64,000 nt of DNA from assembly GCA_030841085.1 (NCBI GenBank), contig JAVEDP010000030.1:1-64000 (forward strand), in the 5' to 3' direction. The DNA is from Pyrinomonadaceae bacterium. GTDB lineage: Bacteria; Acidobacteriota; Blastocatellia; Pyrinomonadales; Pyrinomonadaceae. Below, piece by piece: positions 59,069 to 64,000 of this stretch. The translations under genes were made by a program, and so were the position numbers. Within the stretch, counting starts at the first letter, position 1; each line of letters opens with the position of its first letter. The notes beneath the pieces were generated by a model that saw nothing but the letters and a program-made list of their open reading frames with translations, was not told the origin of the DNA and ran no database searches.

Positions 59069-59368
59069 CTAGATCCGCCGCTGCCATTCCGCTGGATCGC
59101 GCGCGGTGTGAAGAACTGCCAGGACAAGGACCATATCTCCTTCAATTGAAAAGTAAACCGCGTAGGGAAATTGTCGAGTCAGAGCGCGACGAATGCCGGC
59201 GCGTAGCTCTTGATATCCAAATGGATTTTCGAGTATGTGAAGATAAGCAGCACGGAGTTTTTCCAGAAACTCCAGTCCGAGACCAGCTTCCTCAGTCTCA
59301 TACCATTCGAAGGCGCTCTCAACGTCAAATTCGACGGCAGATTCAGCTTCGAATCTATATTGCTTCAC
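59069..59368 (-). CDS. RelE/ParE-family toxin
   Basis: 99-aa toxin of a type II toxin-antitoxin system. VEFDVESAFEWYETEEAGLG followed by LEFLEKLRAAYLHILENPFG is the two-helix start of ParE, and IRRALTRQFPYAVYFSIEGD, VLVLAVLHTARDPAEWQRR is the conserved sheet and C-terminal catalytic or gyrase-contact region (Arg, His). The start overlaps the antitoxin stop by four bases (59365-59368), the normal order antitoxin then toxin. Confidence 0.93.
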   Translation of the reverse strand: MKQYRFEAESAVEFDVESAFEWYETEEAGLGLEFLEKLRAAYLHILENPFGYQELRAGIRRALTRQFPYAVYFSIEGDMVLVLAVLHTARDPAEWQRRI

Positions 59369-59598
59369 TTACGCTTCTGTGACAGCCGGTCGATAACTTC
59401 AAAAGCGGGCCGCGTCGATGAAGGGCTTTTGCGATAACCCCGTAACCGTTCTTCAGCAAGTTGCAGATGACTCTCAGGCACTGGAATTTCTTCGGGGTGT
59501 TCAGAGATTTGATCCCAAAGTGACTGAAGGTAGCGGACCTGTTCAGCTTTAGGAAGCTCCGCAAAACCGGGCGGTGTTGGTATAGATGTCTCGGGCAT
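59365..59598 (-). CDS. Addiction-module antitoxin
   Basis: 77 aa. GFAELPKAEQVRYLQSLWDQ and IPVPESHLQLAEERLRGYRK match the small unstable antitoxin family (PF09720 type) that commonly precedes ParE toxins. ATG 59598 (MPETSIPTPPG) is preferred. Coupled by overlap to the toxin gene. It should bind and neutralise the toxin; autoregulation would need a DNA-binding part that is not evident. Confidence 0.88.
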   Translation of the reverse strand: MPETSIPTPPGFAELPKAEQVRYLQSLWDQISEHPEEIPVPESHLQLAEERLRGYRKSPSSTRPAFEVIDRLSQKRK

Positions 59599-59701
59599 GG
59601 CGCTTAGGTTGGTGCGATGATAACCGAGTTGGCTTTGGCCCACAATAGTTCCAGGGTGGATTCGCCTTGTTTTTAGCGGCTGCTTAGTCCGCAGAGCGTA
59701 A

Positions 59702-59780
59702 AGCATGGGGTGAAGCGCAGCGAAACCCCAGGATCGTCAGCCCAACAAGATCCCAAAGCCCACGGAGCGGGCGATAGCGG
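59702..59780. repeat. Probable dispersed repeat in the 59599-60022 gap
   Basis: GCATGGGGTGAAGCGCAGCG with ACCCCAGGATCG can pair (TGGGGT / ACCCCA), followed by CCCACGGAGCGGGCGATAGC. An 84-codon minus-strand frame (59684-59938) covers it, but reads as translated repeat rather than a protein. Nothing else definite lies in the gap. Confidence 0.4.
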
Positions 59781-61781: not shown

Positions 61782-63350
61782 ATGACGCTCACGCTTCGTT
61801 CTGACAGCTTGGATTGGGCGCTCGATCACGCCCTGAATTTTGGGGACACCACTATGTTCCCTTTACCATTTGAATATGAAGCCATCAAGTACGACTGGTT
61901 GAATGTACGCGCGTTCCTTGCGGGACAGGATGTCCTGAACTGGGTGGTTCGACCGCATCGAGCCATGCTCTCACCTAAGGCCAAGTATGGCTTTCGGGTT
62001 ATGACGCAATTAGATCCACTTGACTTTCTAATTTATGCATCGCTCGTAAAGGAGATTGGACCTGATATTGAGTTGGCGCGAATAGCCTCCGATATAGCGT
62101 TCTCATATCGCTGTTTAGTGGGCACGGGAGGACAGTTGTTCGATCCAGGAATAGGTTATTCAAGTTTTAAGATTAAGACAGAACAAGTGTTGGATGGGGA
62201 TGCCAGTATTTCACATGTGGTGGCAGTCACAGACATTTCCGATTTCTATCCCCGAATTTATTCACACCGTCTCGAGAACGCGCTACACAACTCAACGCAC
62301 CGCAACTCTCATGTTAAGGCAATCATGCATTTGTTGTCAGGATGGAATGGTTCGGAGAGTTTCGGAATACCTGTAGGTAATGCTCCCTCACGTCTGTTGG
62401 CCGAAGCGACTATCAGCAACGTCGATGACGCACTACTTGCTAATGGTGTTCGCTTTGTTCGATACAATGATGACTACCGTATTTTCGCAACTAGCTACTC
62501 ACAATCATATCGACATCTTGCTTTCTTAGCGGATGTACTTTACAAGACCCAGGGGCTTACGCTTCAACCTCAGAAGACATTAACAGTGCCAACCTCCGAG
62601 TTCCGAAGGCGGTTTCTTCCTGCTCCGGAAGAACGTGAATTAGATTCTCTCAATGACAAATTCGGAGTTTTGCTTGGCGAATTGGGCCTCTCGGATCCGT
62701 ACGGTGAAATTGAGTACACCGATTTGGACCCTGACCAGCAAAAGATCATTGATTCCTTAAACCTCGTAGAGATTTTTCGGGAGGAGATCGCCAAGGATGA
62801 TCCTGATTTTGGGATTATCAGATTTGTTCTTAGTCGAATGGGACAGTTGGGCGATGATTCACTTGTTGATGATGCTCTCGACAATCTCAATTCACTGCAT
62901 CCCATATTTCCCTCGGTTGTTGGGTATCTTCGTAACCTAAGAAGTATCACCCCTACAAGAAGCGCGGAAATCGGAGGAAAAGTTCTTCGGCTTCTTGAGG
63001 ATTCTTTGATCAGCGAGTTGGATTACCATCGGATGTGGGCGTTAGATCTGTTTACTCATTCTACCGAGTGGGATAACGAGACCAGGTTCTTTGCACTTCT
63101 CGGAGCAGCAAGGGATCAGCTGAGCCGACGGAAGCTTATTCTTGCGATGGGTCGCGCAAAACAGCGCCACTGGTTCCAGTCGCAATGGAGGAGTCTTTTC
63201 GATGAGCCTCATTGGCCCCGAAGGGCGCTCTTGGCGGCTGCTAGCTGTATGCCTGCAGATGCCCGGAATCATTGGTGCCGATCTGTAGAGCCGCGTTTAG
63301 ATCCTCTTGAAAAAGCAGTGATGCGTTGGGCTAAGAATACTCCTTTTTAA
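61782..63350 (+). CDS. Reverse transcriptase with long C-terminal helical region (defence-type RT candidate)
   Basis: About 522 aa from ATG 61782 (MTLTLRSDSLDWALDHALNF). RT motifs in order: VAVTDISDFYPRIYSHRLEN (catalytic Asp about 151), GIPVGNAPSRLLAEATISNV (about 195), and RYNDDYRIFATSY with YNDD at 228-231 in place of YADD, followed by QPQKTLTVPTSEF. There is no maturase, endonuclease or integrase part, and no group II intron around it. The last ~230 residues look helical and repetitive, as in Abi/DRT-type RTs. DNA is A+T-richer than the neighbours. Not assignable to a named subtype. An NDT-like gene follows after 36 bases. Confidence 0.88.
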   Translation: MTLTLRSDSLDWALDHALNFGDTTMFPLPFEYEAIKYDWLNVRAFLAGQDVLNWVVRPHRAMLSPKAKYGFRVMTQLDPLDFLIYASLVKEIGPDIELARIASDIAFSYRCLVGTGGQLFDPGIGYSSFKIKTEQVLDGDASISHVVAVTDISDFYPRIYSHRLENALHNSTHRNSHVKAIMHLLSGWNGSESFGIPVGNAPSRLLAEATISNVDDALLANGVRFVRYNDDYRIFATSYSQSYRHLAFLADVLYKTQGLTLQPQKTLTVPTSEFRRRFLPAPEERELDSLNDKFGVLLGELGLSDPYGEIEYTDLDPDQQKIIDSLNLVEIFREEIAKDDPDFGIIRFVLSRMGQLGDDSLVDDALDNLNSLHPIFPSVVGYLRNLRSITPTRSAEIGGKVLRLLEDSLISELDYHRMWALDLFTHSTEWDNETRFFALLGAARDQLSRRKLILAMGRAKQRHWFQSQWRSLFDEPHWPRRALLAAASCMPADARNHWCRSVEPRLDPLEKAVMRWAKNTPF

Positions 63351-63386
63351 TAATCTGACTACGAATACTAATCACGGCCTTAGGAA

Positions 63387-64000
63387 ATGAAGAAATTCCA
63401 CTCTGTAGTCATTTCCGGATCCTTTAGAAAACACTTCGAAGAGATCCAAGCCGTGCGTGCCAAGTTCGAGGACTTGGGTGTGCGCGTACTCTCGCCGCGA
63501 AGTGCCACAGTCCGCGATGAAAAGTCTGGCTTCATCCTGCTGACAACAGACGAAACCGACGACCCCCAGACACTGGAAAAACGACATCTCGAAGCCATCA
63601 GAGAAGCTACGGCTCTTTACGTTGTCAATCCTGATGGATATCTTGGACATTCCATGGCACTGGAAATCGGGTGGGCAACAGGTCTCGAAAAGCCTGTGGT
63701 CACCCAGTTCAGTTTCGCGGACCAAGCAATTCAAGCTCTTGTTAATGATGTGATGTCCCCGGACGAATTTGCTCAGAGACTGATCGCAGCCTCGCCGCCT
63801 AATGTGACTCCTAGCGACGTTGCCAGTAATTCGGAACCATCCAATGATGCTAAACTCAAAGAGTATGAACTTTGCGCCATTGACGCCAATCATCTTGAAA
63901 GCGTCATTTGGACGACGGCCGGAATTCTTATTACTGGGTCCGTCGCAGGTATAGGGTTGCTCGGAGGCACTCTGCCGTCTGAGCCACGACAATACGACCT
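63387..64000 (+). CDS. Nucleoside 2-deoxyribosyltransferase-like protein with C-terminal membrane segment, 3'-partial
   Basis: Frame open from ATG 63387 to the window end (204 codons seen), preceded by TAGGAA. The N-terminal domain begins FHSVVISGSFRKHFEEIQAV and RAKFEDLGVRVLSPRSATVR, then EAIREATALYVVNPDGYLGH, SMALEIGWATGLEKPVV: the pattern of nucleoside 2-deoxyribosyltransferase and related nucleoside-processing folds (SGS near the start, Asp/Asn before GYLG, and Glu in LEIGWA). After a variable linker (about 130-165) a hydrophobic stretch (about 172-192, VIWTTAGILITGSVAGIGLL) looks transmembrane. It is probably in one operon with the RT. The substrate may be nucleosides or NAD-like molecules. 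Confidence 0.75.
   Translation, partial: MKKFHSVVISGSFRKHFEEIQAVRAKFEDLGVRVLSPRSATVRDEKSGFILLTTDETDDPQTLEKRHLEAIREATALYVVNPDGYLGHSMALEIGWATGLEKPVVTQFSFADQAIQALVNDVMSPDEFAQRLIAASPPNVTPSDVASNSEPSNDAKLKEYELCAIDANHLESVIWTTAGILITGSVAGIGLLGGTLPSEPRQYD

Follow-up and report, generated by a model that had tools for sequence, protein, structure and literature searches.

A stretch of 64,000 nucleotides from a Pyrinomonadaceae bacterium (contig JAVEDP010000030.1, positions 1 to 64,000; hereafter the window) ends in a reverse transcriptase (RT) gene of the named UG7/Drt8 lineage, which is closely followed by the gene of a predicted membrane protein with a nucleoside deoxyribosyltransferase (NDT)-like N terminus and an 8xMP-like C-terminal part. 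The identity of the RT is firm, and we hold it with near certainty. Overall, we lean toward a reading in which this UG7/Drt8 RT acts like DRT4 and AbiK, and the second gene encodes a locus-specific membrane protein on which the RT family does not depend. The features of the locus are collected in Table 1.

Table 1. Features of the RT locus in window coordinates.
Feature	Position	Strand	Description and basis
Drt8/UG7 RT gene	61782..63350	+	522 aa; PADLOC PDLC03783 Drt8 profile, RVT_1, homologues
RT motif A, DISDFY (aa 151-156)	62232..62249	+	D151 and F155 invariant in 19 RTs
RT motif C, YNDD (aa 228-231)	62463..62474	+	D230 and D231 invariant in 19 RTs
Tyr307, candidate priming residue	62700..62702	+	sole tyrosine invariant among 19 Drt8-like RTs
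HEAT-like C-terminal helical-repeat region (~aa 317-522)	62730..63347	+	AlphaFold2 model; alignment with AbiK, DRT4, and DRT6
Intergenic gap, 36 bp	63351..63386		without terminator- or promoter-like site
NDT-like/8xMP-like membrane protein gene	63387..64000, on to contig position 64385	+	332 aa; PF05014, PF24838
NDT-like domain (~aa 1-115)	63387..63731	+	SGS(F/Y)(R/H)xH and E93 in GHSMALEIGWA; alignment with three homologues
First predicted membrane segment (aa 173-196)	63903..63974	+	hydropathy

The RT and its assignment to Drt8/UG7

The RT frame with its intact motifs lies far beyond chance, and its start was set at the ATG that aligns with the starts of other family members. The PADLOC profile PDLC03783 (Drt8) matches residues 5–520 of the protein over positions 2–492 of 493 (E 1.9e-149, 497 bits), and the second-best PADLOC family, UG21, reaches 123 bits. 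RVT_1 scores 32 bits, the one RVT_1 match in the whole genome. The initial annotation had described intact RT motifs with a YNDD variant, and an alignment of 19 homologues confirms this: motifs A and C are intact, Asp-151, Asp-230, and Asp-231 are invariant, and the catalytic residues and Tyr-307 are kept in 19 of 19 RTs, which share 24–63% identity with the window RT. The window RT thus agrees with DRT8 (UG7) from end to end and in its invariant residues, and falls into a named clade; it is neither unclassified nor a new type of RT. Directly after the invariant Arg-100 (around residues 100–103), it is two residues shorter than the aligned near relatives, an in-frame deletion in the RxP segment before FSYR. 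Two Drt8 homologues look broken, one (L101, G582) with an internal TAG or split frame and one from a KSB1 bacterium (L009) with a frame change near the C terminus.

Homologues with 55–63% identity to the window RT occur in Nostoc, Bacteroidales, Syntrophaceae, Pseudomonadales, Poribacteria, KSB1, and Geothermobacter, and none at this level was found in the 59 other searched genomes of the host genus and family; the host's closer relatives lack both the RT and the second gene. Such a patchy spread across phyla is typical of a mobile defense gene. The window RT clusters with Nostoc in a 19-RT tree (support 0.78). The plasmid search returned distant RTs only (23–34% identity), and no relative was found in phages and viral contigs. 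The G+C content of the RT gene is 47.9%, compared with a window mean of 53.5%, and its third-position G+C of 0.47 is the lowest among the 43 window frames of at least 200 amino acids; the second gene has 51.0% and 0.53, respectively. The low G+C of both genes fits horizontal gain, as had been suggested from the A+T-richer DNA, and the RT is in our view an ordinary DRT8 polymerase gained by horizontal transfer.

The AlphaFold2 model (mean pLDDT 71) consists of the RT domain followed exclusively by helices (residues 271–519), in agreement with the long helical C terminus noticed initially. Foldseek ranked DRT4, DRT6, and UG15 at the top with AbiK next, and a profile search of PDB sequences put Abi-P2 and UG15/DRT4 in the first places. 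With VIA-align, the model superposed with AbiK, DRT4, and DRT6 over 414–438 residues (Z about 15–19.5, rmsd about 5), reaching Z 19.5 over 428 residues for AbiK and about 17 over 414–434 residues for DRT4 and DRT6. The top Z values (about 20) belong to the RT domains of group II introns and DGRs, which cover the RT part alone, whereas DRT4/UG15, DRT6, AbiK, and Abi-P2 are matched along the full length. By this model, the window RT possesses the C-terminal α-helical HEAT-like domain of class 1 UG/Abi RTs. It has the RT plus helical-repeat architecture in common with these four, although they belong to other UG families and share only about 11–17% sequence identity with it.

Identities as group II intron, DGR, or retron RT were ruled out by profile scores, although, taken by itself, the RT domain can be aligned in structure with all RTs. 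In type I-A retrons, an RT adjoins an NDT-like effector and an ncRNA, and retron operons include annotated NDT-like genes (PMC12548924), so that the kinds of genes are the same in name as at the window locus. However, the single retron match of the RT in NCBIfam scores 29.9 bits (retron_St85, cut-off 235) compared with 497 bits for Drt8, which upholds the initial view of a non-retron RT. Moreover, the RT belongs to a different family and carries a helical-repeat domain, the second protein has a membrane domain, and an Rfam scan of 12 kb around the locus gave no match above cut-off, a scan that an undescribed RNA would escape. Drt8 loci from different genera share no conserved flanking DNA, and in the two Nostoc loci the RT begins 45 bp past the upstream gene. 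Together with the Rfam result, this is consistent with an RT that works free of an ncRNA, and a type I-A retron is very improbable here.

The NDT-like/8xMP-like membrane protein

The second frame, placed by the initial annotation 36 bases past the RT stop, indeed starts there on the same strand. The window contains 204 of its 332 residues, and extension of the contig to the right, as had been advised, completed the gene. The resemblance to NDT enzymes holds in part: PF05014 matches with E 3.6e-4, but the score of 21.1 bits lies below the curated cut-off of 28.8, and the assignment is marginal on its own. The N-terminal domain aligns at 25–35% identity with NDT-like proteins from a Miltoncostaea plasmid and from two genomes within the phylum. 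These proteins share the SGS(F/Y)(R/H)xH motif and Glu-93 with the second protein, and Glu-93, which sits in a GxxxxxE.G.A-type motif (GHSMALEIGWA), is invariant in 4 homologues. In NDT enzymes, the glutamate of this motif is catalytic.

The hydrophobic C-terminal segment reported earlier resolves by hydropathy into three membrane segments (residues 173–196, 204–222, and 298–316), of which the first alone lies fully inside the window. PF24838 (8xMP) matches the second protein with E 2.2e-6 and 28.0 bits in hmmscan and with 30.3 bits in the genome search (cut-off 30). The helix/TM/TM/helix/TM layout agrees with that of clear 8xMP proteins, but a profile built from TIR-linked 8xMP members did not recover the second protein, and we therefore consider its 8xMP membership marginal. 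A single-sequence fold model of the window part reached a pLDDT of 51, at which a fold search is meaningless.

No homologue of the whole second protein turned up among 396 genomes of the phylum, in two other groups of 82 and 229 genomes, or in plasmids, phages, and viral contigs. Matches in the sample of 396 phylum genomes were at the domain level only, and those in plasmids were limited to the NDT domain. The eight genomes with near relatives of the RT and three further Drt8 genomes contained no convincing NDT-8xMP relative (one weak match, E 0.004). A recurrent pair of another kind occurs in L104 (G362) and L105 (G336), where an NDT-like protein precedes an AAA-domain protein of ∼655 residues that resembles IetA (PADLOC E 3.4e-15 in L104).

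In the same phylum, clear 8xMP genes adjoin ThsB-type TIR genes, as judged by Pfam (L060, L063, and L066) or by similar sequence (L061, L064, and L065), and in L062 the 8xMP gene adjoins a SEFIR/TIR gene. In some of these loci, the 8xMP gene lies between two TIR-like genes. The seven loci are possible Thoeris-like membrane-effector variants. Some 8xMP domains are fused to other N-terminal domains. The three-helix membrane module beside ThsB/TIR genes is similar in layout to the second protein, which differs by its marginal score (28–30 bits), its NDT-like N terminus, and the lack of a ThsB/TIR gene among its immediate neighbors (the RT, an HTH protein, and a response regulator). It is this 8xMP/TIR context that suggests a pore-like effector role for the second protein.

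Gene neighborhoods of Drt8 RTs

For comparison with the window locus, 23 further Drt8-like loci were taken from at least seven phyla; in eight of these loci the RT has 55–63% identity to the window RT, and L005 and L006 have short downstream flanks. NDT and 8xMP profiles were run against the own locus and 20 other Drt8 loci, and then against three more. An NDT-like or 8xMP-like neighbor was found in none of the 23, the eight nearest included, and in most of them the RT stands alone. In this sample, a conserved RT-NDT operon is not supported, and absence of the pair from related genomes had been named beforehand as an outcome that would refute the idea.

In four other Drt8 loci, the RT is followed within 75 bp by a co-directional frame, which in three of these loci is a defense-type gene. 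In the distant loci L050 (G151) and L129 (G1029), an RT-associated PD-(D/E)XK nuclease (PADLOC RTasPDDEXK) follows the RT directly (9 bp after it or overlapping); the two nucleases share 26% identity and occur in a single branch of the tree only. In L128 (G1049), a PD-Lambda-3_B-like protein with a Hypoth_Ymh domain (E 7.8e-80) begins 72 bp past the Drt8-like RT. The fourth locus, L004, has a frame of 82 amino acids. A profile built from the L050 and L129 partners matched nothing else in the window, in L002, or at the remaining loci, and because 21 of the 23 loci lack this partner, we do not treat it as defining the RT family. In place of an RTasPDDEXK neighbor, the window locus has the NDT-8xMP gene. 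The gene neighborhoods show Drt8 RTs as mostly solo, with varied partners where there are any, and a new partner at the window locus is credible.

Scans for promoters and terminators at the locus did no better than on shuffled sequences, and the repeats around it included nothing resembling target-site duplications. Homologues of the gene on the upstream flank exist in the genus, but none of the other flank genes is located near these homologues, and no clean empty site was found. A ParE-type toxin and an addiction-module antitoxin are encoded ∼2.1 kb upstream of the RT on the minus strand (59069–59706), and a second TA-like pair, DUF433 followed by a DUF5615/PIN-like gene, lies ∼5 kb beyond the second gene (L002 9355–9896). 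An XRE-type HTH regulator gene (L002 4680–5024, minus strand) is convergent to the NDT-8xMP gene, ∼300 bp beyond it; it may act as a regulator or mark where the acquired segment ends.

Mode of action and the role of the second gene

Class 1 UG/Abi RTs with helical repeats synthesize untemplated DNA, in some cases primed by a tyrosine (PMC9508834, PMC13174585). AbiK, Abi-P2, and DRT4 are protein-primed and template-independent (PMC9508834, PMC13314766), and DRT4 is a single-gene system whose single-stranded DNA turns toxic once a phage protein protects it (PMC13314766). For DRT8, no mechanism has been published (PMC13213688, PMC13314766), so that its transfer from DRT4/AbiK rests on the fold, as do the proposed template independence and protein priming of the window RT. 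A DRT4/AbiK-like action is likely. The RT would oligomerize via its helical-repeat domain and, upon phage infection, make single-stranded DNA without a nucleic-acid template. Synthesis would be primed from a residue of the RT itself, for which we infer Tyr-307 as the candidate from its conservation, and the product would stop the growth of the infected cell. The second protein would combine an N-terminal NDT-like domain that binds or cleaves nucleotides or nucleosides with a three-helix 8xMP-like membrane module, and its gene may either have been acquired as an accessory effector or be an independent defense or stress gene. The two genes are probably co-transcribed. The antiphage role of the RT is putative, as is any role of the membrane protein; judging from the compared loci, the RT appears self-sufficient in most genomes and the second gene dispensable across the RT family.

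How far the two genes belong together can be read in two further ways. In a two-gene DRT8 variant, the RT would serve as sensor and polymerase and the NDT-8xMP protein as its dedicated effector; the NDT-like domain would read RT activity (single-stranded DNA, a DNA adduct, or a change in dNTPs) and open or assemble an 8xMP membrane pore, leading to cell death. The short same-strand gap with no terminator-like site and the low third-position G+C of both genes speak for it. The close partners of other Drt8 members (RTasPDDEXK in L050 and L129, PD-Lambda-3_B-like in L128) favor a functional pairing at the window locus, too. A review lists Cap17 SLOG/PNP effectors with DRT8 (PMC10952713), which would be another nucleoside-acting partner, and coupling of an RT to an enzymatic effector is known from the RT-nitrilase DRT1 (PMC13275509), although DRT1 is a fused single protein of class 3, whereas the window locus has separate genes and a class 1-like RT. 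The ThsB/TIR genes adjoining 8xMP genes, and the fusion of some 8xMP domains to other N-terminal domains, point in the same direction. However, neither a second case among the 23 Drt8 loci nor a whole-protein homologue in any of the searched collections was found, and the two-gene variant stays an open minority reading, somewhat short of an even chance.

Alternatively, the NDT-8xMP gene may be an unrelated neighbor in a patch of accessory genes, to which we give about even odds. The pair is not conserved, TA-like genes lie nearby, and NDT-like homologues occur in other contexts such as before the AAA ATPase of L104 and L105. The short co-directional gap argues against mere adjacency, as do the defense-type genes found in this position at three of the four loci elsewhere whose Drt8 RT has a close downstream frame. 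In a further proposal, the RT of a DRT8 variant, protein-primed and untemplated, would drive an NDT-like domain joined to an 8xMP module of the TIR/Thoeris-associated kind and so couple DNA synthesis to membrane killing; we consider this rather unlikely. A DRT4/AbiK-like RT beside a locus-specific membrane protein is the reading we keep, and a new two-part defense system is possible.

The locus adds a member to DRT8, a named antiphage RT group without a published mechanism, and offers Tyr-307 as a testable candidate for the priming residue of this group. The partners of Drt8 RTs vary from none to PD-(D/E)XK, PD-Lambda-3_B-like, and possibly NDT-8xMP proteins. If the pair is functional, it would link DNA-making RTs to a membrane module that is seen beside TIR genes.
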